Shown one piece after another: positions 15,406 through 35,364 of a stretch of 40,752 nucleotides of DNA. The notes beneath the pieces were generated by a model. The model worked only from the letters and a program-made list of their open reading frames with translations, did not search any database and was not told where the DNA came from. The stretch is from Candidatus Didemnitutus sp. (GTDB lineage: Bacteria; Verrucomicrobiota; Verrucomicrobiia; Opitutales; Opitutaceae). The stretch's first letter is position 1, and each line of letters opens with the position of its first letter. Location of the stretch: NCBI GenBank assembly GCA_023701285.1, contig JAMPXH010000026.1:1-40752 (forward strand), in the 5' to 3' direction. The position numbers and the translations under genes were made by a program.

Positions 15406-16051
15406 GCCGATCCGCATTTTCCTGGTCGACGACCACCCGCTGGTCCGCGAATGGCTGGGGCAGTTGTTGTCGAGCGAGCCCGGCTTCGAGGTGATCGGAC
15501 AGGCGGACGATGCGGCGCCCGGTCTGGCCGCCATGACCGGCAACCCGCCGGACATCGCGATCGTCGACCTGTCGTTGCGCAACGGCAGCGGGCTCGATCT
15601 CATCAAGGAACTGCGCGAGAAGCTCCCGGCCGTGCAGGTGATCGTGCTCTCCATGCACGAGGAACTGGCCCACGTCGAACGCGCGCTGCGCGCCGGTGCG
15701 GCCGGCTACGTGATGAAGCGCGAGTCCACGACCCGCATCGTCGAGGCGATCCGTGCGGTGCGCGCCGGCCGGGTCTATGCCAATCCCGAGGTGCTGGCGC
15801 GCCTCGCGGAGCGGATGGTCGGGCGCCGGCAGGGCGGCGCCGCCGGCACCGTCGACACGCTGAGCGACCGCGAGCTGGAGGTTTTCCGCCGGATGGGCGA
15901 GGGGCACGCCACCAAGCGCATCGCCAGCGACCTCGGGGTCAGCATGAAGACCGTGCAGGAATACCAGGCGCGCATCAAAGAGAAGCTCGGCTTGGCGGAT
16001 GCGACCGAACTCATGCGGGCGGCGGTGCGCTGGACCGAAGGGGTGCTTTGA
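15395..16051 (+). CDS. NarL/FixJ-family response regulator (REC + LuxR HTH)
   Basis: A 218-residue transcription factor, partner of the kinase at 14284-15405, with which it overlaps by 11 bp. The receiver domain has acidic residues in FLVDDHPLVREW, phosphoacceptor Asp58 in IAIVDLSLRNGSG, the Ser/Thr switch in VIVLSMHEE and the conserved Lys in GYVMKRES. A linker leads to a LuxR-type helix-turn-helix with TLSDRELEVFRRMGEG, IASDLGVSMKTVQ and the recognition-helix end YQARIKEKLGL. It should bind DNA as a dimer after phosphorylation. Targets are unknown; GTCGGGC heptamers lie just downstream at 16060-16207. Confidence 0.94.
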   Translation: MSPEPIRIFLVDDHPLVREWLGQLLSSEPGFEVIGQADDAAPGLAAMTGNPPDIAIVDLSLRNGSGLDLIKELREKLPAVQVIVLSMHEELAHVERALRAGAAGYVMKRESTTRIVEAIRAVRAGRVYANPEVLARLAERMVGRRQGGAAGTVDTLSDRELEVFRRMGEGHATKRIASDLGVSMKTVQEYQARIKEKLGLADATELMRAAVRWTEGVL

Positions 16052-16059
16052 TAATCATT

Positions 16060-16207
16060 GTCGGGCGCGGGAGGACAGCGGTTTACCCCGGAGCCCGACA
16101 GACATTGCCAAAAATTTGCCCTATAGTCGGGCGTGTTGGTTCTAAGGCACCAAGCAACTTAGGTTCAGTTCAACAAGGCTATGCTGCACGTCTGACTCAG
16201 GTCGGGC
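16060..16207. repeat. Four GTCGGGC/GCCCGAC heptamers with 33 bp spacing
   Basis: GTCGGGC occurs at 16060-16066, 16126-16132 and 16201-16207, and its reverse complement GCCCGAC at 16093-16099. The first three sites are spaced exactly 33 bp apart. The last two sites share the 10-mer GTCGGGCGTG. The 170 bp gap is less GC-rich than its surroundings and lies between the convergent ends of the response regulator and yihY genes, so it is not an obvious promoter region for either. Confidence 0.55.
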
Positions 16208-16221
16208 GTGCAGTCCTGTTT

Positions 16222-17754
16222 TCAGGCCCCGCCGGGTGCGGCGGCGAAGGGGGCGCGGGTGACGTTCGAATCGAAATCGTCCAGCAATTCGTCGAGGGTG
16301 CGGCCCCCCAGCGCCTCGGGCAACGCGGTGGCGAGGCGCGCGTGATAGTGCGCGAGGATGGGATCGACGCTGTCGAGCATGTCGCCGCTCGGCGAGGCGC
16401 CGTAGTGGGCGAAGAGCTGCTGGAATTCGAAGAGCGTGATGCGGTTCAGCGGCCGCGCGGGCTGGTAGCGGTAGTCGTTCGGGTCGCGGCTCTCGGACGA
16501 AGGCAGCTGGGCGATGAGTTGCAGGTCGCAGAGGCGGTTGAGGCTCTCGTTCAACACCTGCGAGGGCACGCGGATGCGGTGGGAAAGCTGCGTCACCGAA
16601 TAAGGCGGCAGGCACTCCTTGAAGCGGCGGGCGACGAGCAGCAGCACGAGCAGCGAGAGGCTTTCGCGGGCGAAGGCGTTGAGGCTGTGCCACGCGGTCT
16701 GGCTGCTGCGATAATGGACGTTCTGCACCGCGTAGGTGATCTGCCCGCCCACGAGCACGAAGAACCAGAAGATGTAGAGGCCGAGCATCAGGATCGGCAG
16801 GATGCCGACGGAGCCGTAGAGGCTCTTGGAAAGCACGACGCGTTTGAAATAGAGGAAGGCGAGAGTGTTGTTCAGCAGCAGCAGGGCCGTGACGATCACG
16901 GCGCCGATGAAGGCAGCGCCCCAGCGCACGCGGGTGTTCGGGATGGAGCGGTAGAAAAGCGTGAGCATGACCGCCAGCAGCACGGCGGACGACGAGGGCA
17001 GCATCCACGTGAACAGCGCCTGCAGATGCCCGCCCAGCGGCAGCTTGTCGAAGAAGAGGGTCATGACCGCGCCGGCCGAGAGCAGCGTCAGCGAAGTGAA
17101 AAACAGCAGCGCTCCGAGCGTGATGACGGTCCAGTAATAAACGATGCGCGTCACCCAGCTCCGCCCGCGGCGCACGCCCCAGATGTCGTTGAACGCATTC
17201 TCGATCGTGGTGAACAACTGCACTGCGATGACGAGCAGCGTGAGCAGGCCCACGGCGCCGGCCGTGCCGGAGCGGGAGCTCTCGATGAAGTGGTTGATCA
17301 GCTTGACGAGTTCCGGGTCGGGCGCGGTCTGCGTGCGCACCGTGCCGTCGGGTGCCGTCGTCGCCACCGGGGCCGGCGCGGGGGCTTCGGGCTTGGTCTC
17401 GGGGTGCGTCGGCACGTGGGCTTGGTCGTATTGCGCGACTTGTGGAGCGATGAAGGCGATGACGCTGTTCAGGCTGCGCGCAAGGATGGCGGGGTCGCGG
17501 TCGCCGAGGGCGAAGCCCGCGATCAGCACGGCGAGCGCGATCATCGGGCCGAGACCGAGGAGCGAACTGTAGCTGAGCGCCGCGGCGCGCGCCGCGACCT
17601 TGATCTCCTGCAGGCCGGAGAGGGTGATGGAGATGACGCGGAGGATGGCGAAGAAGCGGCCGCGCAACGACCGGTCCCGCGCCGTGGCGGCGGCCCAGAT
17701 GTCAACGGTCCAGAGACGGTGGAGCCGGGCGACGTAGGCTTTGAGCGGATTCAT
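16222..17754 (-). CDS. YihY/BrkB-family inner-membrane protein
   Basis: A 510-residue integral membrane protein of the YihY/virulence factor BrkB family (older databases call it ribonuclease BN, which is wrong for this family). The core is visible in ARAAALSYSSLLGLGPMIAL, ENAFNDIWGVRRGRSWVTR, and several transmembrane segments from residue ~60 to ~340 ending at FWFFVLVGGQITYAVQNV. A Pro/Ala-rich loop near residues 115-135 interrupts the first half. The C-terminal ~150 residues are soluble and resemble a winged-helix-like segment (YSVTQLSHRIRVPSQVLNESLNRL), common in longer members. Function is unknown. The gene follows the GYF_2 gene by 33 bp and is probably co-transcribed with it. Confidence 0.9.
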   Translation of the reverse strand: MNPLKAYVARLHRLWTVDIWAAATARDRSLRGRFFAILRVISITLSGLQEIKVAARAAALSYSSLLGLGPMIALAVLIAGFALGDRDPAILARSLNSVIAFIAPQVAQYDQAHVPTHPETKPEAPAPAPVATTAPDGTVRTQTAPDPELVKLINHFIESSRSGTAGAVGLLTLLVIAVQLFTTIENAFNDIWGVRRGRSWVTRIVYYWTVITLGALLFFTSLTLLSAGAVMTLFFDKLPLGGHLQALFTWMLPSSSAVLLAVMLTLFYRSIPNTRVRWGAAFIGAVIVTALLLLNNTLAFLYFKRVVLSKSLYGSVGILPILMLGLYIFWFFVLVGGQITYAVQNVHYRSSQTAWHSLNAFARESLSLLVLLLVARRFKECLPPYSVTQLSHRIRVPSQVLNESLNRLCDLQLIAQLPSSESRDPNDYRYQPARPLNRITLFEFQQLFAHYGASPSGDMLDSVDPILAHYHARLATALPEALGGRTLDELLDDFDSNVTRAPFAAAPGGA

Positions 17755-17787
17755 GCGGTCGCGCCGTTCGGCGCGGTCGGGGCGGCT

Positions 17788-18558
17788 TCAGAACAGGGAC
17801 ATGCTCGCGAGGGCGGCCATGCCGCCCACGCCGGCGAGCACCGCGACGCCGAGCGGGATGTAATTCAGGAAGATCGTGCTGAAATAGAGGCCGGCCGAAC
17901 CGGCCAGCAGCGCGAGCACGGCGGTCGGGTTGCCCTGCGTCCAGAGGATGAAGCCGAGGAAGCCGAGCCCGAACACGGCGCGGAAGCGCACGAAAGGATA
18001 GAGCGTGATCACGCCGAGGAGCAGGAGCACGCCGATGACGAGGTCGAGCACGCCGAGGAGGATGAGCGGTTTCTCGATCAGCTGCATGTAGTCCATCGCC
18101 ATGAGCGCATCCACGCCGGGGAGCACGAGCGCCACGGCGCTGAGGAGCATGATGACGGCGGCGCCCTTGGTGCCGAGCATCGCGGCGCGCATCATCTCAA
18201 GGCTCTTGTCCTTCTTGTTGCGGGTGTCGTCGGTGTTGCCTTCGGCGGCATCGAGGAATTGCTGGACGGTGATGGGCGGCGCGCTGTCGGTCGTGGCCTG
18301 GTTGACGGGCTTGAATTCCTTCTCCTTGAAACCAAGGCGCTTTTTCTGCGGCCAGATGATCGCCTTCAACTCGGCGTTCGATTCGAGCGTGAGCCACTGT
18401 TCCGTGGTCGCGTCGTAATAATAGGTTTCGGGCGTGATCTGGTCGGCCTCGGCGAGGGAGGCGAGCTGGTCGGTGTTGAACGGGCCGCGCGCTTCGGCGT
18501 CATTGATGCCGCGCACGTAATACTCGGGGCCGGAGGAAGGGGAAGCGCCGCTCGACAT
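17788..18558 (-). CDS. GYF_2 (DUF4339) domain membrane protein
   Basis: About 256 residues. The N-terminal GYF_2 domain is clear: EYYVRGINDAEARGPF, then LASLAEADQITPETYYYD and EQWLTL. A linker rich in charged residues follows. The C-terminal half has four or five hydrophobic segments (AAVIMLLSAVALVLPGV, LGVLDLVIGVLLLLGVITLY, VLALLAGSAGLYF, LGVAVLAGVGGMAALASM). GYF_2 domains are frequent in Verrucomicrobiota and Planctomycetota and are thought to bind proline-rich peptides, so the cytoplasmic part may recruit a partner. The exact role is unknown. An ATG three codons earlier (18567) is an equally open start. The gene lies 33 bp upstream of yihY. Confidence 0.82.
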   Translation of the reverse strand: MSSGASPSSGPEYYVRGINDAEARGPFNTDQLASLAEADQITPETYYYDATTEQWLTLESNAELKAIIWPQKKRLGFKEKEFKPVNQATTDSAPPITVQQFLDAAEGNTDDTRNKKDKSLEMMRAAMLGTKGAAVIMLLSAVALVLPGVDALMAMDYMQLIEKPLILLGVLDLVIGVLLLLGVITLYPFVRFRAVFGLGFLGFILWTQGNPTAVLALLAGSAGLYFSTIFLNYIPLGVAVLAGVGGMAALASMSLF

Positions 18559-18661
18559 GGTGAGCATATGTTGGCCCCGGGGTGGGCACCGGCAAGAGTG
18601 AAGTGGTCGGCCAAACGGCCCTGCGCCGACGCGGGACGCGAATCGCGTGCCGGCGGCTTGG

Positions 18662-18690
18662 CGCGCGAGCGGAGGATGTCCGCTCGCGCG
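18662..18690. repeat. 12-bp perfect hairpin downstream of argS
   Basis: CGCGCGAGCGGA (18662-18673) pairs perfectly with TCCGCTCGCGCG (18679-18690) around the loop GGATG. It sits in the 159 bp gap after the argS stop and before the GYF_2 gene. No U-run follows on the minus strand, so it is more like a REP-type stem-loop than an intrinsic terminator, although it may stabilise the argS mRNA end. Confidence 0.55.
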
Positions 18691-18717
18691 ATGGACGGCC
18701 GACGCGCACGGCGCGCG

Positions 18718-20505
18718 TCACATGCGCTCGAGCGTGCGCAGGCCGAGCAGATGCAGGCCCGACTCGAGCACGATGAGCGTGCGATGACAGAGCAGCAGGC
18801 GGCGCGCCCGCACGGCGGGATCGTCGACGATGACCTTGTCCGCGGCGTAGAACGCGCTGTAGGCACCGGCGAGCTCGAAGAGATAGAGGCAGAGGAAGTG
18901 CGGGCGGAGCTGCTGCGTGGCGGCGCGGACGGCGTCGGCGAACTGCACGAGCTTGCGCGCGAGGGCGAGTTCCTGCGGCGTCTCGGGCGGCGTGGCGCCG
19001 GCGGTCGGCGGCTGCGCGGGATCGAGGCCGGCCTTGCGGAAGATCGAGCGCACGCGCGCGACGGCGTAGAGCAGATACGGCGCGGTGTTGCCGTCGAGCG
19101 CGAGCATCTTGTCCCAGGAGAAGACGTAGTTGCTCGAGCGATTTTGCGAGAGATCGGCGTATTGCACGGCGCCGATGCCGACGGCGCGGGCGATGTCGCG
19201 GCACTCGGCGTCGGTGAAGCGCTCGGCCTCGGGGCGCTCGGCGTTCTTCGCGGTGACGATCGCGTAGGCGCGCACCTCGGCCTCGTCGAGGAGCGCCTTG
19301 AGCTTGATGGTGCCGCCGTCGCGCGTCTTGAGCGCCTTGCCGTCCTCGCCGGTCACGGCGCCGAAGGTGACGTGGTGCAGCTCGGGGCGCCGGTAATTTT
19401 TGGCCGCAAACCATTTTCCGACGGTAAGGAAGAGCTGCTCGAAGTGGTCGCTCTGGCGGAAGTCGGTGACGATGACGATGCCGTCGGCCTGGAAGTGCTC
19501 GGTGCGGTAGAGCGCGGTGGCGAGATCGGTGGAGGCGTAACCGCTCGCACCGTCGGCCTTGCGGACCATGAAGGGATTCGGGCGCTCGGCGTGGCGGCTG
19601 AAGCGCGGGTGCTCGTCGTGGAAAACGACGAGGGCGCCGGCGCTGTCCTCGGCAAGACCGGTCTCGGTGAGCTCGCGATAGACGCGGTCGACCTTGTCGT
19701 TGTAGAAGGATTCGCCGAGGTTGTGGTCGAAGCGGATGCCGAGGCGGTCGTAGATCTGTTGAAACGCGGCGAGGCTGACCTCGCTGAATTTCTTCCACAG
19801 GGCGACGTTCTCGGGGTCGCCGTTCTGCAGCTTCACGAGTTCGGCGCGCGCTTCGTCGAGCTCGGGCGAGCCTTCGGGCGTGGCGTTGTGCCCGAGTTTG
19901 TAGAGACGCTCGAGCTCCTCGATCGCGTCGCGTTCGAGCGCGGCGGGATCGGCCCAGCGCTTGTAGCCGTAGATGAGCTTGCCGAATTGCGTGCCCCAGT
20001 CGCCGAGGTGGTTGTCGCGGATGACATGGGCGCCGTTGAACGCGAGCAGGCGGCAGAGCGCCTCGCCGATGACGGCGGAGCGGAGATGGCCGACGTGCAT
20101 CTGCTTCGCGGTGTTGGGTGACGAGTAATCGACGACCCAGTGCTGGCCGCGGCGGGCGCCGGCGGCGGCCTCGCGCAGGTGCGCCTCGCTGTCATGTTGC
20201 GCGAGCCACGCGAGCAGCGCGGCGGGCTTGAGGCGGAAGTTGATGAAGCCCGGGCCGGCGAGCGAGCAGTCGAAGGTGGCGGCGGTTTCGGCGTCGAGCT
20301 GGTCGACGATCTGCTGCGCGACGGCGCGCGGGTTCTGCTTCTCGCGCTTGGCGAAGGCGAGGGCGCCGTTGGCTTGGAAGTCGCCGTGGGCCGGATCGGC
20401 CACGCGCACTTCCGGCTCAAATCCTCGGTCGCCGAACCCCAGGCGTCCAGCGGCCGCGCGGAGGGCCGAGTCGAGGTGATTGGCGAGGTGGAACGGCAGG
20501 TGCAT
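18718..20505 (-). CDS. argS: Arginyl-tRNA synthetase
   Basis: A 595-residue class I aminoacyl-tRNA synthetase that charges tRNA-Arg. The N-terminal tRNA-binding Arg_tRNA_synt_N domain occupies about residues 1-95 (GFINFRLKPAALL). The catalytic domain starts with VVDYSSPNTAKQMHVGHLRS, which holds the HIGH-class motif HVGH and the conserved SPNxAKxxHVGH context. DNHLGDWGTQFGKLIYGYK follows. The KMSK region is replaced by EDGKALKTRDGGTIKL, usual for many ArgRS. The C-terminal DALR anticodon-binding domain ends in LLLCHRTLIVLESGLHLLGL. Length and order match the family. It is divergent from the nucleoside phosphorylase gene with 215 bp between the start codons. Confidence 0.97.
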   Translation of the reverse strand: MHLPFHLANHLDSALRAAAGRLGFGDRGFEPEVRVADPAHGDFQANGALAFAKREKQNPRAVAQQIVDQLDAETAATFDCSLAGPGFINFRLKPAALLAWLAQHDSEAHLREAAAGARRGQHWVVDYSSPNTAKQMHVGHLRSAVIGEALCRLLAFNGAHVIRDNHLGDWGTQFGKLIYGYKRWADPAALERDAIEELERLYKLGHNATPEGSPELDEARAELVKLQNGDPENVALWKKFSEVSLAAFQQIYDRLGIRFDHNLGESFYNDKVDRVYRELTETGLAEDSAGALVVFHDEHPRFSRHAERPNPFMVRKADGASGYASTDLATALYRTEHFQADGIVIVTDFRQSDHFEQLFLTVGKWFAAKNYRRPELHHVTFGAVTGEDGKALKTRDGGTIKLKALLDEAEVRAYAIVTAKNAERPEAERFTDAECRDIARAVGIGAVQYADLSQNRSSNYVFSWDKMLALDGNTAPYLLYAVARVRSIFRKAGLDPAQPPTAGATPPETPQELALARKLVQFADAVRAATQQLRPHFLCLYLFELAGAYSAFYAADKVIVDDPAVRARRLLLCHRTLIVLESGLHLLGLRTLERM

Positions 20506-24826: not shown

Positions 24827-24892
24827 GTCAGGCGCGGTCCTACGCCGCGTCTGCATCCTCGCGCTCATCGTTTGCAGCAACGGTGCTTGGGC

Positions 24893-24946
24893 TTGGCACA
24901 GCGGGAGCGAAAATTTCAACTATGGACAGTAAGTTCATTAGTGAAC
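24893..24946 (+). promoter_or_regulatory. Candidate promoter and operator upstream of the giant lyase gene
   Basis: TTGGCA (24893-24898) is followed after 17 bp by TCAACT (24916-24921), a weak sigma-70-like pair. Just downstream, GTTCATTAGTGAAC (24933-24946) is a dyad with 5-bp arms and a 4-bp centre, placed where a repressor would cover the transcription start. It lies about 50 bp before the ATG at 24998. The promoter match is poor; the dyad is clear. Confidence 0.3.
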
Positions 24947-24997
24947 GACTCGCGAATCCCCAATCGCGATCCTGGTCATCCCCCAACACCCCTGCTC

Positions 24998-27900
24998 ATG
25001 ATTGCTTCGCCCCGCTGCGAACAAACTGCCCGCCTGCTGGCGTGCCGCGCCGCTCTTGCCTTTGCCTTGCTTCTGGCCGGCCTGCTTCTCGGGCCCGCCG
25101 CGCGCGCCGCCGAGATTGCGATCGTCAACTCGGGCACGACTTCGGCCACCAGCTACAGCCTCGGCGGCACTGCCTATACGCAGAGTTTCGACACCTTGCC
25201 GGGCAGCGGCACGGTAGCTTGGGCCAATGACACCACGATTCCGGGATGGAGCGTCGCGCTCACCTCCGGCGCGCTGACCAATGCGACGATCGTCATCACC
25301 GATGGCGCCAGCAACCTCGGCGACCTCCGCGTCGCGAGCGCCGGCACCGCCGGTGCGGCCGATCGGGCGCTGGCGCTCCACACGCAGGTGGATGTTGCGC
25401 CGACCTACATCGGGGTCGGCTTCCAGAACACTTCCGGCCGCGTGCTCGAGCGTTTCTCGCTGGCCTACACGGCGGAGCAATGGAAGGAGAGCGGCAGCGC
25501 GCGCAACCTCACCTTCACGGTCCAGTATCGCATCGGCGCCACCGCTGCCGATCTGAACGCCACCTCCGGTTGGACGACTCTCGCCCCGCTCACCGCCACC
25601 ACCTTGAGCGGCTCCGCTGGCGCCGCCACCACGCTCGCGGCGAACGACGTCGCGGTCACGATTCCCGCCGGCACGTCCATCTGGTTCCGCTGGCGCACCT
25701 CCAACAGCGCCACCAGCGCGACCTCGTCCAACGACATCTTGGCAATCGACAACGTCAGCGCGTCCTTCGTCGCCGCGCCCGACGGCAGCCCGTTGATCAC
25801 CACCCAGCCCGAGGCGCAGAGCGTCAACCTCGGCTCCGGCGTGCCGACCGGTGCCACGTTCAGCGTCGTCGCCACCGGTGACGCCCCGCTCGCTTATCAA
25901 TGGCGCAAAAACGGCACGGAGATTCCCGGTGCCACGTCCACCACCTATGGCATCGCTACGGTGCAGGCCGCTGACGCGGGTGACTACACCGTTGTCGTCA
26001 CCAACGCCAAAGGCTCGGCCACCAGCGCCGTCGCGACGCTCACGGTCACGAACACCGTCGAGGCGCCCGAGATCACCACGCATCCGCAATCCCAGACCGC
26101 TGACCTCGGCGCCACGGTGCAGTTCTCCGTCGTCGCCACGGGCGGGTTGCCCCTCGCTTACCAATGGCACAAGAACGGCGCGCCCATCGCCGGCGCCGAT
26201 TCCGCCACCCTGACGCTCACCAACGTCGCCGCGAGCGCCGCCGGCTCCTACAACGTCGTCGTCTCCAATTCCGCCGGCTCCTTCACGAGCCTGTCCGCCA
26301 CGCTGTCGCTGAACGGCGTCATCACACCGCCCTTCATCGTCGAGCAGTCCGGCTCGCAATCCGTCGTGGTCGGCGGCGCGGTCTCCTTCACCGTCACCGC
26401 GGCCGGCAGCGCGCCCTTCACCTACCAATGGAACAAGAACGGCACGCCGATCAACGGCGCCACCTCCCTGGTGTTGGCTCTGTCCAACGTGACCCTCGCC
26501 GCGGCTGGCGATTACACCGTCACGGTGAGCAATGGCGGCGGCTCCGTCACGAGCGAACCGGCCACCCTCACGGTCACCGAGCCGCCCGCCGGCTCGGATT
26601 CCGCCCTCTTCGTCGCCCCCGACGGCCTCGCCGGCAACCCCGGCACCTACGCGCAGCCCACGACGCTCGCCAACGCCATCGCGATCGTCCCGGCCGGCGG
26701 CACCATCTACCTGCGCGGCGGCATTTACACCTACAACACGCAGATCACCATCGCGCGCGGCAACAACGGCGCCGCGGGCCTGCACAAGCGCATCTTCGCC
26801 TACACGCCCCCGGGCGGCACCGCCGAGAAGCCCGTGCTCGATTTCTCGTCCCAGCCCTACGGCAGCACCTCGCAAGTCAGCAACCCGCGCGGCGTCTTCA
26901 TCGGTGGCAATTACTGGCATCTCAAGGGGCTTGAGGTGAAGGGCGCCGCCGACAACGGCATCTTCGTCGCCGGCAACTACAACATCGTCGAGCTCTGCGT
27001 CACCCACAAGAACCGCGACTCCGGCCTCCAGATCGCGCGCTATTCCTCCTCGGCCCCGAAGTCCGAGTGGCCCTCCTACAACCTCATCCTCAACTGCGAG
27101 TCCTACGACAACTACGACTCCGCGCCCAACGGCGGCGAGAACGCCGACGGCTTCGCCTGCAAGCTCACTTCCGGCCCGGGCAACATCTTCCGCGGCTGCA
27201 TCGCCCACCACAACATCGACGACGGCTGGGACCTCTACACCAAGAGCGACACCGGCGCGATCGACCCCGTCGTGATCGACCAGTGCATCGCCTACAGCAA
27301 CGGCACGCTCACCGACGGCACGCAGAACTCCGCCGGCGACCGCAACGGCTTCAAGCTCGGCGGCGAGAAGATCGCCGTCGCCCACTACGTCTCGCGCTCC
27401 ATCTCCTTCGGCAACGGCAAGAACGGCTTCACCTGGAACAGCAACGGCGGCCCGATCCAGATGGTGAACAACCTCGCGTTCGACAACGCCGAGGGGAATT
27501 TCAAATTCGATCTCGGTGAGGCGAAGTTCTTCAACAACGTCTCGCTGTGGACGGCGAGCAACGGTCCCGGCAACCGCGTCGGCGTCAGCGATCGCTACAT
27601 CGGCAACAGCGGCGCCCCCACCGGAGCGACCAATGTTTTCTGGTTCACCGGTTCCTCCAGCCGCGGCCCGAGCATCAACGACGCCGGCCTGACCGCCTAC
27701 CGCACCGGCTTCGTCACGCTCACGCTGCCCGCCAACGGCTTCGCCCGGCGCGCCGACGGCAGCATCGATCTCGGTGACTTCGCCCGTCCCGTCGCCGGCA
27801 GCCCGCTCCTCAACGCCGGTGCCCTCCCTCCCGCCGAAGTCATCGCCTGGCTGCCCTACAACACCGCGACCTATTACGAGAATGCGCCGGACATCGGCGC

Positions 27901-30900
27901 CGTGGAAACTTACCTCGCCTCGCCGCCGGTCATCGTCTCCGCCCTCGCGGACCAGAGTGCGCTGCCGGGCACCAGCGTCACCTTCTCCGTCTCCGTGCAG
28001 GGCACGGCGCCGTTCACCTATCAGTGGACGAAGAACGACGTCGCCATCTCCGGCGCCAGCACGGGCACACTGACGCTCGCTTCGACCCAGCTGTCCGACT
28101 CCGGCACTTATCGCGTCACCGTCACGAACGATTTCGGCTCCGCCACTTCCAGCGCCACGCTCACCGTCGATGCGCCGCAAGGCCCGTCCATCACCACGCA
28201 ACCGCAGTCCCTGACCGTCACCGAGGGCGGCTCCGCCCAGTTCTCCGTCGTCGCCACCGGCACGCCCGTGCTCGCCTACCAGTGGCGCAAGAACGGTGCC
28301 GCGATCTCCGGCGCCACCGCTGCCACCTACACGATCCCCGCCACGCAACTCTCCGACGCCGGCACCTACAGCGTGCTGGTCACGAATGCCTATGGCTCCG
28401 CCCCGAGCGCGGACGTGATCCTGACCATCGACGCCGCTCCCGCCGCCCCCGTCGCCGCCACGGCCTCCGAGGTCGGCAACACCGGCTTCACCGCGTCGTG
28501 GTCCTCCGTTTCCGGTGCGCTCGGTTACCGGCTCGACGTTTCGACGCACAGCGATTTCGCGACCTTCCTCGCCGGTTATCAAAACCTCGACGTGGGCACG
28601 GCGCTGAGCCGCTCCGTCACCGGCCTCACTTCGGGCACCGCCTATTACTATCGCGTGCGCGCCATCCACGCCGCGGGCGCGAGCCCGTCGTCCAACGTCG
28701 TCGCCGCGCTCACGACCGGTGCCGCGGCCACCACGGTCGATGTCTCGCAACTCACTTGGTATAAGTCGCGCTCGGCCGACACCGTCGCGGCCAACGCGAC
28801 CGCGAAGACCGTCACCTTCACCGAAGGCCAGACCTCGTCGTCGATGTATGTCGCGAACCTGCCCGCGTCCGTCACGATCGCCGCGGGCCAGAAGGTGACG
28901 TTCACCTTCACGCTGCAGAGCGGCTCGAACGTCCCGAGCACCGCGAACGCCCTGCGCATCGGTCTCTACAACAACAACGGCACCGCGCTGAGTGCCAATC
29001 CCAGCGGCGACAGCAACTCCGCCTTCACCGACGACACCGGCTACATGGCCAGCTACGTGTTCAACACCGGCGCCGGCTCCCTTTACGGTCGCACGCCGTC
29101 TTCCGGCAACTCGAACCAGCAGCAGCTCATGGGCACGACCGGCGAATACACCGCCCTGGGCGCCGCCGCGGCCACGGGCACGCCGGCCGCGTTCGCCGCG
29201 TCGACCAGCTACTCGGTCGCGATCACGATCACGCGCCTCGCCGCGTCGACCGAGGTGTCCTATGCCATCAACGGCGGCTCCACGACGAACTACACCGTCA
29301 CCGCCACCGATTCCGCCAGCGGCTCGCTCGGCACGGTCTCGTTCAATCAGTTCGGCATCCGCGTCGCCGGCGGCTCGAACTCGATCAACAACTTCACGCT
29401 CGGCAACCTCGGTTACATCATCGAGTCCGCCGCGCCGACCGCCCCCGCGATCACCACGCAACCTATCGCCCAGGACGTGCCGATCGGCGGCAACGCCACC
29501 TTCACCGTCGTCGCCTCCGGCACCGCGCCGCTCAGTTACCAGTGGCGCAAGGGCGGCACCGACATCCCCGGCGCCACCGCGTCCACGCTCACGCTCACGG
29601 GCGTTTCCGCCGCCGATGCCGCCGACTACTCGGTTGTCGTCACCAACAGCGTCGACTCCGTCACCAGCAACGCCGCCGCGCTGACCGTCTTCACGCCGGT
29701 GTTGCCCTCGATCACCGCCGGGCCCCAGTCGCAGACTGTGAACGACGGCGCCACCGTCACCTTCAGCGTCACGGCCACCGGCACGCAGCCTTTCAGTTAT
29801 CAGTGGAAGAAGAACGGCACCGACATCTCCGGCGCCACTTCCGCCACGCTCACGCTTAACGCGGTCTCACTCTCCAGCGCCGGTAATTACACCGTGGCCG
29901 TCACCAATGTGGCCGGCTCCGTGACGAGTGCGACCGCTCTTCTCACCGTCAACGCCGTGGCGCCGTCGATCACGACCCCGCCCGCCGCGCAGACGGTCAA
30001 CGTCGGCAGCAACGCCACCTTCAGCGTCGTCGCCACCGGCACCGCGCCGCTCGCTTACCAGTGGCAGAAAGGCACCACCGATATCCCCGGCGCGACGTCC
30101 GCCAGCTACACGGTCGCCAACGCGCAGACCGCCGATGCCGGCAACTACCGCGTCGTGGTTTCCAACTCCGCCGGCTCCGCCACCAGCGCGGCGGCCGCGC
30201 TCACCGTCGTCACGCCCCAGGCCCCCACGATCACGGCCCAGCCGCAAGCGCAGACCGTGTCCGACGGCGGCAGCGTCACCTTCAGTGTCACGGCCACCGG
30301 CACGCAGCCTTTCAGTTATCAGTGGAGGAAGAACGGCACCGACATCTCCGGCGCCACCTCCGCCTCGCTCACGCTCACCGGCGTCACCCCGGCCAGCGCC
30401 GGCAGCTACAGCGTCGTCGTCACCAACCTCGTGACGTCCGTCACCAGCACCGGAGCCACGCTCACCGTGCAGGCCGTCGCGCCCGCGATCACGACGCAGC
30501 CGATGGCGCAATCCGCGCCGCTCGGCGGCAGCGCGACGTTCACCGTCGTCGCGACCGGCACCGCGCCGCTCGGCTACCAGTGGCAGAAGAACGGCACCGA
30601 TATTCCCGGCGCCACTTCCGCTTCCTACACCATCACCGGCGTGCAGGCGGCCGACTTCACCACCTACCGCGTCGTCGTCACCAACAGCGCCGGCTCCGCG
30701 ACGAGCAGCGCCTTCGCGCTCTCGCTCGCCAGCGGCCTGCCGGTCACGGCCTTCAACCTCACCGGCTTCGCCACCGTCGGCACCGGCACCACCGGCGGCG
30801 GCGTCATTCCCGATACCGATGTCGCTTACCGCAAGGTCACCACGCCGCTCGAGTTCGTGCAGGCGATCATCGATTCGAACAAGACCGCCGGCAAGGTGAA

Positions 30901-33900
30901 GGTCATCGAGATCATGAACGACCTCAACCTCGGCTGGACCGAGGTGGGCACCGCCGTGCAAACCCTGGCCAGCAACGCCCTGCGCGAGCACGCGGCCCCC
31001 AAGCTCCACCCCGTGCTCAAGGCTTCTGGCGTCAGCATCCTCGACATCAAGTCGAAGAGCCCGCTCACCATCTTCTCGGCGAACGGATCGGCCATCCGCC
31101 ACTGCAATTTCAACATCAAGGGCACGTCCAACATCATCATCCGCAATCTCAAGTTCGACGAACTGTGGGAATGGGACGAGGCCTCCAAGGGCGATTACGA
31201 TTCCAACGACTGGGACTTCATCACCATCGGCAACGGCGGCGCCGTCTCCAATGTCTGGATCGACCACTGCACGTTCACGAAAGCCTACGACGGCACGATC
31301 GACATGAAGGTCGGCACCAAGAACGTCACAGTCTCGTGGTGCCGCATCGTCGGCGATGACGAGGCCACGAACCCCAACAGCTTCGTGCGCCAGCAACTCG
31401 CCGCCCTCGAGGCGACCAAGAGCTCCCACGCCGGCTACCGTTTCCTCCGCGACACCGTCGGCTACACGATCGACGAGATTGCCGAGATGATCCAGGGGCA
31501 CGACAAGGGCGCGCTGATGGGCGCCACGTCGCTCAATTCCGGCAACGCCACGCTCACCGGCACGTTCCACCACGTGTGGTTCCAGAACGTCTGGGACCGC
31601 GTCGTGCCGCGCCTGCGCGGCGGCAATGTCCACAACTACAACATCTACGTCGACGACGTCGTCGGCCTCCAGGCCCGCCGCATGCGCGACGCCAAGGCCA
31701 CCGCCGCGCTGACCACGAGCGCGCTCAACTCGTTCAACAACGGCAGCCCCTACAAGCTTCGTCCGTTCCTCAACGGCACCATCTCCACCGAGGGCGGCGC
31801 CATCCTCGTCGAGAAGTCGATCTACTCCGACTGCCTCACGCCGCTGCGCAACAACCAGACGGACCCGAGCAACGCCGTCTACACCGGCAAGATCCTGGCC
31901 CTCGACACCATCTACCGCTTCAACAACCCGGACGGCTCCGTCATCCAGGTCCGCGGCAACAGCACCGACCCGAACAACCCGCTCGGGCCCTTCCAGGCCG
32001 CGGTGATCCCGTTCTCTTGGACGAATCTCCCCAACAACCAGCTCCCGTATGCGGTGCCGGCGATGGACGATCCTGCCGAGCTGCCGCAAATTCTGACGGC
32101 CGGCGCCGGCGCCGGCGTGCTCACATGGAGCAAGGACAACTGGCTCCGCACGGCCTACGTTGAGGATGCCACGATCCCGCCGTCCATCGTCGCGCAGCCG
32201 CAAGCGGTGACCACCACCGCGGGCGCCGACACCACCTTCACCGTCCAGGCCGCCGGCAGCGCCACGCTCCTCTACCAGTGGAAGAAGGGCGGCGTGAACC
32301 TCGTCGACGGCGCGCGCATCTCTGGTGCTAACTCCGCCGTGCTCACGATCTCCGGCACCGAAGCCGGAGACGCCGGTGATTACTCCGTCACGGTCTCCAA
32401 TGCCAACGGCAACGTCACCAGCTCCGTCGCCACCCTCACGGTCGGCGCCCCAGTCGCGCCCGGCATCGCCACGCAACCCGCCGACCAGAGCGTGATCGCC
32501 GGCCAGGGCGTGCAGTTCTCCGTCGTCGCGACGGGCAGCGCGCCGTTCAGCTACCAGTGGAAGAAGGACGGCGTCGATATCGTCGGCGCCACCGGTGCGC
32601 TCTACGAAATCGAGTCCGCCCGGGTCGATGACACCGGTGCCTATTCCGTCACCGTCACCAACCTCGCGGGCAACGTCACCAGCTCCAGTGCGACGCTCAC
32701 CGTGGCGCCTTCGACTGCCGCTCCAGTGGCCGCCGCCGCGACGGCGGTCGGCAACCAGGGCTTCACCGCTAACTGGGCCGCGGTGGACCGCGCCGACGGC
32801 TACCGCCTCGACGTCTCCACGAGCAACACGTTCGCGAGCTTCGTCCCGGGTTACCAGGACCTCGACGTCGGTGCCGTCGTGAGCCACGCCGTCACCGGCC
32901 TCAGCACGGGCACGACCTATTACTACCGCGTCCGCGCCTACGGCACCGGCGGCACCAGCGTCTCGTCGTCGGTCATCACGGTCGCCACCACCGGCACCGC
33001 GGCCACCAACGTCGACCTCTCGCAGCTCACCTGGCTCCGCAGCCGCACCGCGGACACCGTCACGGCCAACACCACGACGCAAACCGTCACCTTCGCCGAA
33101 GGCCAGACCTCCGCTTCGGGCTACATCGCGCACCTCGCGGCGCCGATCAACGTCGCCGTCGGTCAGACCCTCACGCTCACGCTCACCTTCGAGACCGGCA
33201 CCGTGAAGACGGTCGCGAATGCGCTCCGCTTCGGCTTGTTCAACACGCAGGGCACCCGGGTCACCGACTTCGGCAACACCGAGACGACCAACCTCGTCAC
33301 GGACGACACCGGCTACATGGCGTCCTACAACCTCGACACCGGCAACGGCTCGCTGCTGGGCCGCATCCCCGGGAGCACGAACACGACCCTGATGAGTTCC
33401 ACCAACGCCGCGCTCTACACGAGCACGGCGCCGGCCCGCCTGAGCGGTGCCCCTGCGCCGTTCGCGTCGGCGACGTCGTATGCGCTTACGCTGACCCTCA
33501 CGCGACGCGAGGGTGGCAACGTCTGGTCCGCGCGCCTCCACGGCGGCGCCACCGCCGACTACGTGCTGACCGGCGTCGACACCACCACGCCGTCCGTCGC
33601 CACGCAGAGTTTCGACGAGTTGGCGTTGCGCATCGCCGGTGGCACCAACTCGCTCGACACGCTCAAGCTCACCTCGCTGCAATTTACCGTCGCGGCCACG
33701 CCTGCGGAACTCGCCGCACCCACGATCTCCGCCCAGCCCCAGCCGCGTGCCGTCGCGCTCGGTGCTGCCGCCAACTTCGCGGTGACGGTCGCCGGCCCCG
33801 GATCTTTTGCCTACCAGTGGCGCAAGGGCGGCGTTGCCATCCCGACCGCGACCGGCGCGACTTACACGATTCCCGCCGTCGCCGAGACGGATGTGGGCAG

Positions 33901-34360
33901 CTACGATGTCGTGATCACCGGCCCCGGCGGTCGCATCACGAGCTCGGCAGTCGCGCTGACGATCGCCGCCGATGCCTATGCCGGCTGGCTGGAGCAGTAT
34001 TTCACCGCGGACGAGCGCGCCAACGCCGCCCTCAGCGGCCCCAGCGCCTCCGCCGCCGGCGACGGCGTGGCGAACCTCTTCAAGTATGCGCTCGGCCTGA
34101 ATCCCCGCGCGCCGATGCCCGGCGGCTGGCACGAGATCGAAACCGTGCAAGGCGGCTGGGTCTTCGTCTATCGTCGCCCGGCGGACCGCGCGGATGTCGG
34201 CTTCGTTGTCCAAGTGTCGGGCAACCTCGTCGATTGGACCGACGCCACCGTCGTCCACGAACTCGAGTCGACCGTCGATGGCGTCGAAACTTGGCGCGCG
34301 ATCCACGTCCCGCCCGCCGGCACGACGAAGGTCTTTTTCCGCCTGCAGGTCACCCGCTGA
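24998..34360 (+). CDS. Giant secreted pectate lyase with PL9 and PL1 domains, Ig-like and FN3 repeats
   Basis: About 3,120 residues. The start at 24998 opens a Sec signal peptide (hydrophobic LAFALLLAGLLLGPAARAA); the frame is open 42 codons upstream without protein-like content. Approximate domains: beta-sandwich 40-260; Ig-like 1-3 (264-528); PL9 lyase 533-974; Ig 4-5 (975-1145); FN3 1148-1241; beta-sandwich module A 1242-1478; Ig 6-10 (1481-1911); PL1 lyase 1913-2390; Ig 11-12 (2392-2569); FN3 2571-2665; module B 2667-2905; Ig 13 (2906-2990); C-terminal tail with GDGVANLFKYALGLNPRAP. PL9 has the Pel9A-like acidic set Asp717, Asp741, Asp742, Asp745 and candidate catalytic Lys786 in NGFKLGGE. 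PL1 has VWIDHCTF (2086-2093), DGTIDMK and VPRLRGGNVHNYN with Arg2205/Arg2207. Both lyases cleave polygalacturonate by calcium-dependent beta-elimination. It has no PEP-CTERM or LPXTG end. Confidence 0.92.
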   Translation: MIASPRCEQTARLLACRAALAFALLLAGLLLGPAARAAEIAIVNSGTTSATSYSLGGTAYTQSFDTLPGSGTVAWANDTTIPGWSVALTSGALTNATIVITDGASNLGDLRVASAGTAGAADRALALHTQVDVAPTYIGVGFQNTSGRVLERFSLAYTAEQWKESGSARNLTFTVQYRIGATAADLNATSGWTTLAPLTATTLSGSAGAATTLAANDVAVTIPAGTSIWFRWRTSNSATSATSSNDILAIDNVSASFVAAPDGSPLITTQPEAQSVNLGSGVPTGATFSVVATGDAPLAYQWRKNGTEIPGATSTTYGIATVQAADAGDYTVVVTNAKGSATSAVATLTVTNTVEAPEITTHPQSQTADLGATVQFSVVATGGLPLAYQWHKNGAPIAGADSATLTLTNVAASAAGSYNVVVSNSAGSFTSLSATLSLNGVITPPFIVEQSGSQSVVVGGAVSFTVTAAGSAPFTYQWNKNGTPINGATSLVLALSNVTLAAAGDYTVTVSNGGGSVTSEPATLTVTEPPAGSDSALFVAPDGLAGNPGTYAQPTTLANAIAIVPAGGTIYLRGGIYTYNTQITIARGNNGAAGLHKRIFAYTPPGGTAEKPVLDFSSQPYGSTSQVSNPRGVFIGGNYWHLKGLEVKGAADNGIFVAGNYNIVELCVTHKNRDSGLQIARYSSSAPKSEWPSYNLILNCESYDNYDSAPNGGENADGFACKLTSGPGNIFRGCIAHHNIDDGWDLYTKSDTGAIDPVVIDQCIAYSNGTLTDGTQNSAGDRNGFKLGGEKIAVAHYVSRSISFGNGKNGFTWNSNGGPIQMVNNLAFDNAEGNFKFDLGEAKFFNNVSLWTASNGPGNRVGVSDRYIGNSGAPTGATNVFWFTGSSSRGPSINDAGLTAYRTGFVTLTLPANGFARRADGSIDLGDFARPVAGSPLLNAGALPPAEVIAWLPYNTATYYENAPDIGAVETYLASPPVIVSALADQSALPGTSVTFSVSVQGTAPFTYQWTKNDVAISGASTGTLTLASTQLSDSGTYRVTVTNDFGSATSSATLTVDAPQGPSITTQPQSLTVTEGGSAQFSVVATGTPVLAYQWRKNGAAISGATAATYTIPATQLSDAGTYSVLVTNAYGSAPSADVILTIDAAPAAPVAATASEVGNTGFTASWSSVSGALGYRLDVSTHSDFATFLAGYQNLDVGTALSRSVTGLTSGTAYYYRVRAIHAAGASPSSNVVAALTTGAAATTVDVSQLTWYKSRSADTVAANATAKTVTFTEGQTSSSMYVANLPASVTIAAGQKVTFTFTLQSGSNVPSTANALRIGLYNNNGTALSANPSGDSNSAFTDDTGYMASYVFNTGAGSLYGRTPSSGNSNQQQLMGTTGEYTALGAAAATGTPAAFAASTSYSVAITITRLAASTEVSYAINGGSTTNYTVTATDSASGSLGTVSFNQFGIRVAGGSNSINNFTLGNLGYIIESAAPTAPAITTQPIAQDVPIGGNATFTVVASGTAPLSYQWRKGGTDIPGATASTLTLTGVSAADAADYSVVVTNSVDSVTSNAAALTVFTPVLPSITAGPQSQTVNDGATVTFSVTATGTQPFSYQWKKNGTDISGATSATLTLNAVSLSSAGNYTVAVTNVAGSVTSATALLTVNAVAPSITTPPAAQTVNVGSNATFSVVATGTAPLAYQWQKGTTDIPGATSASYTVANAQTADAGNYRVVVSNSAGSATSAAAALTVVTPQAPTITAQPQAQTVSDGGSVTFSVTATGTQPFSYQWRKNGTDISGATSASLTLTGVTPASAGSYSVVVTNLVTSVTSTGATLTVQAVAPAITTQPMAQSAPLGGSATFTVVATGTAPLGYQWQKNGTDIPGATSASYTITGVQAADFTTYRVVVTNSAGSATSSAFALSLASGLPVTAFNLTGFATVGTGTTGGGVIPDTDVAYRKVTTPLEFVQAIIDSNKTAGKVKVIEIMNDLNLGWTEVGTAVQTLASNALREHAAPKLHPVLKASGVSILDIKSKSPLTIFSANGSAIRHCNFNIKGTSNIIIRNLKFDELWEWDEASKGDYDSNDWDFITIGNGGAVSNVWIDHCTFTKAYDGTIDMKVGTKNVTVSWCRIVGDDEATNPNSFVRQQLAALEATKSSHAGYRFLRDTVGYTIDEIAEMIQGHDKGALMGATSLNSGNATLTGTFHHVWFQNVWDRVVPRLRGGNVHNYNIYVDDVVGLQARRMRDAKATAALTTSALNSFNNGSPYKLRPFLNGTISTEGGAILVEKSIYSDCLTPLRNNQTDPSNAVYTGKILALDTIYRFNNPDGSVIQVRGNSTDPNNPLGPFQAAVIPFSWTNLPNNQLPYAVPAMDDPAELPQILTAGAGAGVLTWSKDNWLRTAYVEDATIPPSIVAQPQAVTTTAGADTTFTVQAAGSATLLYQWKKGGVNLVDGARISGANSAVLTISGTEAGDAGDYSVTVSNANGNVTSSVATLTVGAPVAPGIATQPADQSVIAGQGVQFSVVATGSAPFSYQWKKDGVDIVGATGALYEIESARVDDTGAYSVTVTNLAGNVTSSSATLTVAPSTAAPVAAAATAVGNQGFTANWAAVDRADGYRLDVSTSNTFASFVPGYQDLDVGAVVSHAVTGLSTGTTYYYRVRAYGTGGTSVSSSVITVATTGTAATNVDLSQLTWLRSRTADTVTANTTTQTVTFAEGQTSASGYIAHLAAPINVAVGQTLTLTLTFETGTVKTVANALRFGLFNTQGTRVTDFGNTETTNLVTDDTGYMASYNLDTGNGSLLGRIPGSTNTTLMSSTNAALYTSTAPARLSGAPAPFASATSYALTLTLTRREGGNVWSARLHGGATADYVLTGVDTTTPSVATQSFDELALRIAGGTNSLDTLKLTSLQFTVAATPAELAAPTISAQPQPRAVALGAAANFAVTVAGPGSFAYQWRKGGVAIPTATGATYTIPAVAETDVGSYDVVITGPGGRITSSAVALTIAADAYAGWLEQYFTADERANAALSGPSASAAGDGVANLFKYALGLNPRAPMPGGWHEIETVQGGWVFVYRRPADRADVGFVVQVSGNLVDWTDATVVHELESTVDGVETWRAIHVPPAGTTKVFFRLQVTR
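28722..29430 (+). repeat. FN3-linked beta-sandwich module, copy A (inside giant lyase)
   Basis: Residues ~1242-1478. It starts with VDVSQLTWYKSRSADTV, has ANALRIGLYNNNGT, DDTGYMASYVFNTGAGSLYGR split by strands, and ends with FNQFGIRVAGGSNSINNFTL. An FN3 domain (28440-28718) sits directly before it. It is closely matched by copy B and, more distantly, by the next gene. It looks like a carbohydrate-binding or lectin-like jelly roll, but I cannot name a family. Confidence 0.75.
29755..29856 (+). repeat. 102-bp near-identical direct repeat, copy 1
   Basis: Within Ig repeat 7. It matches 30274-30375 with only four mismatches by eye, offset by 519 bp (173 codons, two Ig units). The conserved stretch encodes TFSVTATGTQPFSYQW and the following KNGTDISGAT strand. 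Confidence 0.85.
30274..30375 (+). repeat. 102-bp near-identical direct repeat, copy 2
   Basis: Within Ig repeat 9; partner of 29755-29856. Even third codon positions are kept, which points to a recent duplication of a two-Ig unit or to gene conversion. Confidence 0.85.
32998..33710 (+). repeat. FN3-linked beta-sandwich module, copy B (inside giant lyase)
   Basis: Residues ~2667-2905, preceded by an FN3 domain at 32710-32992 as in copy A. It opens with VDLSQLTWLRSRTADTV, has ANALRFGLFNTQGT and DDTGYMASYNLDTGNGSLLG, and ends with FDELALRIAGGTNSLDTLKL. The FN3 plus module unit thus appears once after each catalytic half of the protein. Confidence 0.75.
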
Positions 34361-34395: not shown

Positions 34396-35364
34396 ATGAA
34401 AAACCAGCAATCCTCCGCCGGCGGGACCATTCCCGCGCGGCTTACCCTCCATCACGTCCTCCTCGGTCTTGCCCTCACTGCGCCGCTCGGTGCGTGGGGG
34501 CAAATCGTCCTGGTGAACGACAATTTCGCCGACACGGACCGCATCGGCGGCTTGAACGGCTCTTCCACCACGAGCAGCTCGCCGACCATCGCCACCGCGA
34601 CATCGACGAACATGCAGTGGGTGGTGAACGGCACGAGCCAGCTGACCGCCTCCGCCTCCGGCATGCTCTGGAACATGAACTCGACGAGCAATCGCATGGC
34701 CATCGGCTACTTCCCGACCGTCACGGTCGGCAGCCAGGCGGTGACCTTCGCCTTCACGTTCACCACCGGCAACTCCGGGGCCACGGCGAACAATCTGCGC
34801 TTCGCGCTGGTGAACGGCTCGGCCGCCGGCTACCGCACGACTGACGGATTCAGTTCCACGGACGCCAGCTATGTCGGCGACACCGGCTACGGCTTCTTCT
34901 CCAGCGGCTCGACGGTGGGCGGTGGCAACACGACCAACCTCGGTCTCAACACCTATGAGCGCGTGACGACCAGCAGCAACGACCTGCTCGGCACGGCTTC
35001 GGTGTGGGGCACGGCGATCGGTTCGAGCAGCGGCGCCACGGGTTACTTCGCGGCCAACACCACCTACACGTTCTCGGTCCAGATGTCGCATAACGCCGGC
35101 ACGCTGAGCATCACGACCTCCCTCACGGGCGGTAACTTCAGCGGCATGAACTACACCACGTCGGACTCCACCAGCCCGGTGTTGAGCTTCGATACGCTGG
35201 CAATCCGCGTGGGCGGCGGCTCGAATCAGTTCAGCAACTATAACTTCGAGAGCTTCACCGTCTCGCAGATCCCCGAGCCCTCGACCTATGCGGCGTTCGC
35301 CGGGCTCGCGGCGCTCGGGCTCGTGGCGTATCGCCGCCGTCGCGCGGTCGCGCCTGCCAACTGA
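34396..35364 (+). CDS. PEP-CTERM sorting-domain protein sharing the lyase's beta-sandwich module
   Basis: A 322-residue exported protein. The N-terminal signal region is HHVLLGLALTAPLGAWGQ. The C terminus from residue 292 has the PEP-CTERM signature: IPEPSTYAAFAG, a hydrophobic helix (LAALGLVAY) and RRRR, so it should be processed by an exosortase and retained at or released from the cell surface. The body (residues ~40-290) is Ser/Thr/Gly-rich and beta-predicted, with motifs ANNLRFALVNGSA, GDTGYGFFSSGST and FDTLAIRVGGGSNQFSNYNF that parallel modules A and B of the upstream lyase. It starts 35 bp after the lyase stop and is likely co-transcribed. No exosortase gene is in the window. A bidirectional terminator follows. 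Confidence 0.88.
   Translation: MKNQQSSAGGTIPARLTLHHVLLGLALTAPLGAWGQIVLVNDNFADTDRIGGLNGSSTTSSSPTIATATSTNMQWVVNGTSQLTASASGMLWNMNSTSNRMAIGYFPTVTVGSQAVTFAFTFTTGNSGATANNLRFALVNGSAAGYRTTDGFSSTDASYVGDTGYGFFSSGSTVGGGNTTNLGLNTYERVTTSSNDLLGTASVWGTAIGSSSGATGYFAANTTYTFSVQMSHNAGTLSITTSLTGGNFSGMNYTTSDSTSPVLSFDTLAIRVGGGSNQFSNYNFESFTVSQIPEPSTYAAFAGLAALGLVAYRRRRAVAPAN

Follow-up and report, generated by a model that had tools for sequence, protein, structure and literature searches.

A predicted secreted pectate lyase of Opitutaceae that carries PL9 and PL1 domains on one chain

One open frame with two lyase families

Does the long open frame at 24998-34360 encode one enzyme with two catalytic domains from unrelated pectate lyase families, and, if so, are both likely to be active, and is such an arrangement new? 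The window, by which we mean the whole stretch of DNA analysed (40,752 nucleotides from Candidatus Didemnitutus sp.), contains 0 N bases, and translation from an ATG at 24998 to 34360 on the + strand ran through 3,120 aa uninterrupted by stops, in agreement with the single frame of ∼3,120 codons that had been predicted. Begun at a TTG, the open frame spans 24872-34360 (+) and 3,162 aa. The protein comprises one frame with two lyase families recognized by homology, their active-site positions are intact, and the fusion recurs in other genomes. We read it as a secreted single-chain two-enzyme pectate lyase (PL9 plus PL1) on an Ig/FN3 rod, with a probability of roughly 0.78; within this reading, export, activity, binding, and synergy are predictions.

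All features of the protein and its downstream neighbor lie on the + strand. The start ATG and a Sec-type signal peptide (aa 1-37; 24998-25108) were read by eye from the translation, which shows a hydrophobic stretch and an ARA-A cleavage-like site; the chain would be exported through Sec with removal of aa 1-37, leaving a computed mass of ∼315 kDa. A Pfam search of the whole protein returned 13 Ig_3/I-set stretches, two fn3 stretches, a beta-helix, and a PF00544 pectate lyase, and the modules accompanying the two lyases are thirteen Ig, two FN3, and three unclassified. An unclassified N-terminal module (aa 37-262; 25106-25783) is followed by three Ig domains (25781-26584), the PL9 catalytic domain (aa 536-955; 26603-27862), two Ig domains (27926-28432), an FN3 domain (28445-28717), the unclassified module X1 (28715-29407), five Ig domains (29441-30727), the PL1 catalytic domain (aa 1915-2391; 30740-32170), two Ig domains (32180-32707), a second FN3 domain (32720-32992; best fn3 stretch 2578-2661), the module X2 (32990-33667), a last Ig domain (33719-33952), and a C-terminal domain ending in the stop codon (33965-34360), with the Ig and first FN3 boundaries, taken from Pfam, being approximate. 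The lyases are therefore separated by Ig and FN3 modules, as had been proposed, and no dockerin was present among the Pfam matches to the window protein at E 0.01.

Active sites of the two halves

The PL9 half was assigned by a PDB sequence search, residue checks, and alignment. Its nearest solved structure is Pel9A (1ru4; E 1.2e-37, covering aa 32-347 of a 487-aa query), whose Asp and Lys positions align with D717, D741, D742, D745, and K786; these are the very residues named in the original prediction, and all five are invariant in the aligned PL9 rows (7/7). The spacings between the four aspartates (24, 1, and 3) were confirmed by position, and they equal those of Pel9A. By correspondence with Pel9A, we presume that these four aspartates hold calcium. 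K786 would act as the base, consistent with a lysine being the catalytic base of PL9 in the available part of PMC4319962.

The NCBIfam exo-PATE PelX model (NF041903) matched the PL9 half at E 7.7e-48 over profile positions 360-731 of 734, a partial match whose 163.3 bits lie far below the cut-off of 1,490, and PelX (exo-polygalacturonate lyase) membership was rejected on that score. The Pfam Pel9A-like family PF22842 did not match the window protein at E 0.01; on the fused protein of a relative (G006), the PL9 domain of which is 83% identical to that of the window, it scored 56.3 bits against a cut-off of 25.2.

The second PDB match to the PL9 half is a rhamnogalacturonan lyase of family PL9 (5olq; E 1.4e-18), and the half might accordingly be a rhamnogalacturonan-I lyase, joined to a homogalacturonan lyase in a protein that attacks both smooth and hairy pectin. 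This alternative draws some support from the PL9 of Clostridium thermocellum ABN53381.1, for which the accessible part of PMC4319962 gives 30-40% relative activity on rhamnogalacturonan. However, Pel9A is clearly nearer to the window domain, which matches it at the Asp and Lys positions and in the spacing of the aspartates, and we consider a rhamnogalacturonan-I lyase unlikely. As judged from sequence, the PL9 half should be a Pel9A-type lyase, with predicted activity.

For the PL1 half, which was assigned by Pfam, a PDB sequence search, and alignments, the nearest solved structure is PelN (5gt5; E 3.9e-121 over 469 aa), and PF00544 scored 50.1 bits against a cut-off of 24. Both predicted motifs are present, WIDH at 2087-2090 and VPRLRGG at 2203-2209. 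The residues listed for PelN in the available part of PMC8091735 are (i) the catalytic K245, R276, and R281, which align with K2170, R2201, and R2207 of the window protein, and (ii) the calcium-binding D152, D174, and D178, which align with D2073, D2098, and D2102; these six positions are invariant in all ten PL1 rows (10/10). The PL1 half should thus be a PelN-type lyase of predicted activity, in which the Lys and the two Arg would be catalytic and the three Asp would hold calcium. The reservation that searches might fail to support one of the two lyase domains did not hold for either, given 1ru4 and, under its cut-off, the PelX model for PL9, and 5gt5 and PF00544 for PL1.

Both lyases of the window protein are, on the strength of these residues, probably active. 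One half could instead be catalytically dead and act as a pectate-binding module, but the checked active-site positions are intact and invariant in PL9 and PL1 alike, which makes this very improbable. As two working enzymes, both halves would cut de-esterified homogalacturonan by calcium-dependent beta-elimination at two sites, and the Ig/FN3 rod would keep these sites together, yet apart, on the same polymer mesh. The conserved active-site positions are shared with Pel9A (1ru4) and PelN (5gt5; Paenibacillus sp. 0602), whereas the solved chains of these two enzymes (400 and 446 residues, respectively) contain one catalytic domain each, unlike the window protein.

Recurrence, origin, and known counterparts of the fusion

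A search at E<=1e-5 with the PL9 and PL1 segments covered 189 genomes, among them that of the window. PL9 was found in 36 and PL1 in 19, and intersection of the two lists left 15 genomes with both; 10 of these 15 have them at different places, unfused, and five, from three genera and including the window's own, have them in one open frame, as inspection of the frames confirmed. Besides the window frame (G000), the fused frames comprise 3,197 codons in G012, 2,516 in G006, 4,439 in G060, and 8,554 in G076, the lengths for G060 and G076 being stop-to-stop, with the true starts somewhat inside. All five (5/5) share the module order Ig-Ig-FN3-X-Ig(3 to 5) between PL9 and PL1. Among 12 further genomes from the window's genus, two (G012 and G006) have the fusion, and 10, several of them incomplete, gave no PL9 match.

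This recurrence bears on whether the frame is an assembly chimera or a frameshift join of two genes, a concern raised together with the original prediction and lent some substance by the window being one contig of a 220-contig assembly. It did not hold: the same fusion, with the same module order, is present in G012, G006, G060 (a single-contig genome of 4.32 Mb), and G076, and GC3 stays at 0.86-0.94 across every 900-base block of the lyase frame, so uniform that there is no compositional break. We reject a join, which keeps a next-to-nil probability. Around the lyase gene, G012 retains the pyrimidine phosphorylase, methyltransferase, carbonic anhydrase, and EF-P genes, and the examined flanks of G006 also contain those for the methyltransferase (cut by the end of the stretch), carbonic anhydrase, and EF-P. 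Elsewhere in the window, a 1,556-aa frame at 15451-20121, with no Pfam match at E 1e-4, is 86% identical over 1,195 aa to a counterpart in L076, a locus of the G012 organism.

When 387 genomes drawn more widely from the phylum were searched with a PL9 profile (E<=1e-10), 34 had PL9, with the G000 and G060 frames as the only PL9 frames of >2,000 codons; among the shorter ones, PL1 was sought only in that of G014, where Pfam detected none. Among the best 80 PL9 loci in named genomes, some of which end at contig ends, PL1 (blastp, E<=1e-6) was in the same frame in one (L076) and absent in 79. These loci are mainly from Actinomycetota and Bacteroidota, and clostridial fusions are not among them, so that absence elsewhere is not to be deduced from this count. 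The 17 records with a PL9 match in a plasmid search, all at <60% identity, were uninformative on fusion.

In G118, Hymenobacter negativus, Longitalea luteola, and Streptomyces sp. NP-1717, PL9 and PL1 occupy adjoining, separate frames on the same strand; a Verrucomicrobiia MAG (L077) also has separate same-strand frames, with PL1 upstream. That other bacteria keep the two enzymes as adjoining separate frames, and that long inter-domain rods would be plausible protease targets, suits a scenario in which the window protein is cleaved after export into separate enzymes and the fusion secures co-production only. We hold this to be improbable, since the module order between the lyases is the same in all five fused proteins, and we retain the intact two-enzyme chain.

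For the PL9 tree, 62 rows, largely from actinobacteria, were reduced to 11, so that 56 of 107 rows went into it; there, the PL9 domains of the five fused proteins group as a single clade with 99/88 support, recovered in 100% of 200 bootstrap trees, and L077 adjoins this clade. A PL1 tree of 19 rows places all five fused PL1 domains on one side of a branch, but with weak support (50/40; 54% of 200 bootstrap trees). A single fusion event is likely. In relatives, the N-terminal module also occurs in proteins that have only PL1 or only PL9: it precedes the PL1-only protein L074 (G085) and the PL9-only frame of L077, and it is found in L211 (G003), a contig-end fragment that has PL1 with no PL9 before it. 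The C-terminal domain, which contains ..NLFKYALGLNP.., is common to several other large proteins of relatives and had no match in Pfam or NCBIfam. Modular proteins that already existed were probably combined to give the two-lyase chain.

Two published proteins also have PL1 and PL9 on one chain. In C. thermocellum, ABN53381.1 has the architecture PL1B-dockerin-CBM35-PL9; its PL1B and PL9, expressed apart, were both endo-pectate lyases with differing preferences, PL1B being the more active on highly esterified pectin (available part of PMC4319962). Ruminococcus flavefaciens FD-1 encodes the secreted ORF00696, PL1-PL9-X215-Doc (available parts of PMC2930009 and PMC4081043). An enzyme combining PL1 and PL9 is hence an already known kind, and the views that pectate lyases are normally single-catalytic and that a PL9-PL1 combination is unusual were overstated, the proposed rarity being only partly right. 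ABN53381.1 resembles the window protein in that its halves are active on polygalacturonate, but it is cellulosomal, has PL1 first and its two lyases separated by a dockerin and CBM35, and, by the sum of its listed domains, is far smaller; moreover, its PL1B was aligned with 3VMV, 3ZSC, 2QX3, and 1VBL in the part of the paper available, whereas PelN is the closest structure for the PL1 of the window protein. ORF00696 likewise differs in having PL1 first and a dockerin, and Ig modules are not listed for it in the source parts available. As far as we found, the published PL1-PL9 chains are cellulosomal Firmicutes proteins, from which the window protein differs in lineage, domain order, absence of a dockerin, size, and the existence of larger relatives.

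Opitutaceae strain MRC-7 is reported to encode PL1 and PL9_1 (PMC12613999), and in enrichments of lake sediment Didemnitutus was one of the MAG assignments that expressed most lignocellulose CAZymes (PMC13386854), with a fusion unmentioned in the available parts of either paper. The portions available of these two, and of PMC4319962, PMC12037645, PMC4081043, PMC2930009, and PMC8091735, describe no verrucomicrobial PL9-PL1 fusion, nor did the literature searched, in which subscription journals are little covered. As far as searched, a dockerin-less PL9-PL1 chain in Opitutaceae, with CE8-PL9-PL1 and CE8-CE8-PL9-PL1-GH28 relatives, is new.

Accessory modules and larger relatives

X2 is 46-48% identical to X1, and neither these two nor the N-terminal module matched a Pfam family above cut-off; the N-terminal module had no PDB sequence relatives at E<=1. 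Structure models reached a mean pLDDT of 56.4 for X1 (four rows) and 53.4 for the N-terminal module (three rows). Among the Foldseek matches listed for the X1 model, most are legume-type and Emp46p/ERGIC-53 lectins, with GH131, galectin, and Ash2L chains also present (best E 7.0e-4), and the best 50 rows have query TM-scores of 0.24-0.49 and rmsd values of 6.9-13.7 Å; we treat this faint lectin-like hint from the model as a lead only. Foldseek matches of the N-terminal module were a mixture of phage tail, virus capsid, receptor, and CBM folds and were discarded. In our scheme, X1, X2, and the N-terminal module would provide attachment, probably by binding carbohydrate or a neighboring X1-like protein, although for X1 and the N-terminal module a binding role is a guess because the models are poor.

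That neighbor, defined by profile searches and flank comparison (34396-35364), begins 35 bases past the lyase gene and combines an X1-like module with a PEP-CTERM sorting tail (PF07589, 22.9 versus 20.7 bits; TIGR02595, 19 versus 16 bits). It is kept beside the lyase gene in G012 (93%) and G006 (61%). X1 modules might conceivably bind sugars or each other, and the PEP-CTERM protein could perhaps keep the enzyme on the surface of the cell.

Larger versions of the chain occur in two other genera. The G060 frame has a predicted CE8 pectinesterase before PL9-PL1 (PF01095, E 1.5e-27), and the G076 frame (L067 2185-19899 plus L068, G076:C117) is predicted to be CE8-CE8-PL9-PL1-GH28 (PF01095 in two stretches; PF00295, E 1.4e-51), with eleven He_PIG stretches by Pfam and with PL9 and PL1 domains that are 76% and 73% identical, respectively, to those of the window. 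The window genome has a separate CE8-PL1 giant gene on contig C159, whose CE8 region shares 45% identity with the N-terminal portion of the G076 frame over 981 aa and with that of the G060 frame over 893 aa, as well as a CE8 on C116 and GH28 on C220 and C131; the giants of the relatives therefore unite blocks that are kept apart there. This series is to us the most interesting aspect of the locus, for the window type, CE8-PL9-PL1, and CE8-CE8-PL9-PL1-GH28 offer a natural set for testing the synergy of tethered pectinases, with unclassified candidate binding modules added.

A bolder and distinctly tentative reading is that Opitutaceae possess a scaffold-free, single-chain "pectinosome" of CE8, PL9, PL1, and GH28 blocks on Ig rods, with up to five catalytic domains in the 8,554-codon frame. 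Its order of esterases first, lyases next, and polygalacturonase last would suggest that pectin is demethylated, cut, and trimmed at one spot, while a dedicated partner, the PEP-CTERM X1-like protein, would join the lectin-like X1 modules in docking the chain at the cell surface. If this were true, covalent linkage would do the job of the cohesin-dockerin pairs of cellulosomes.

Esterase and lyase also share a chain in CE8-PL1 proteins, namely the C159 product, a CE8-PL1-Doc protein of R. flavefaciens FD-1 (available parts of PMC4081043 and PMC2930009), and a CE8-PL1-PL1 protein of G016 (L072:6213-13298; a 2,362-codon frame), but these, unlike the window protein, are without PL9. On C220 of the window genome, L209 (G000:C220) is a 2,476-codon Ig/FN3/X1 protein with NHL-like repeats and, by eye, a GGGGG-transmembrane-basic tail; its neighbors are a TonB-receptor-like frame (by eye) on one side and a GH28 frame on the other, and the region looks like a pectin-use locus. 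Two further frames, L070:7214-18352 (G062; 3,713 codons) and L217 from 2293 (G057; 3,675 codons), carry PL1 with FN3, He_PIG, and NHL modules and continue in frame, with no stop codon, into a TonB-dependent receptor (Pfam Plug), passing a GGGGG-transmembrane-basic tail and then another signal-peptide-like stretch on the way (both by eye). They are possibly lyase-transporter polyproteins, or else two genes that merely have no intervening stop, and the two frames, from two genera, are 65% identical over 3,285 columns.
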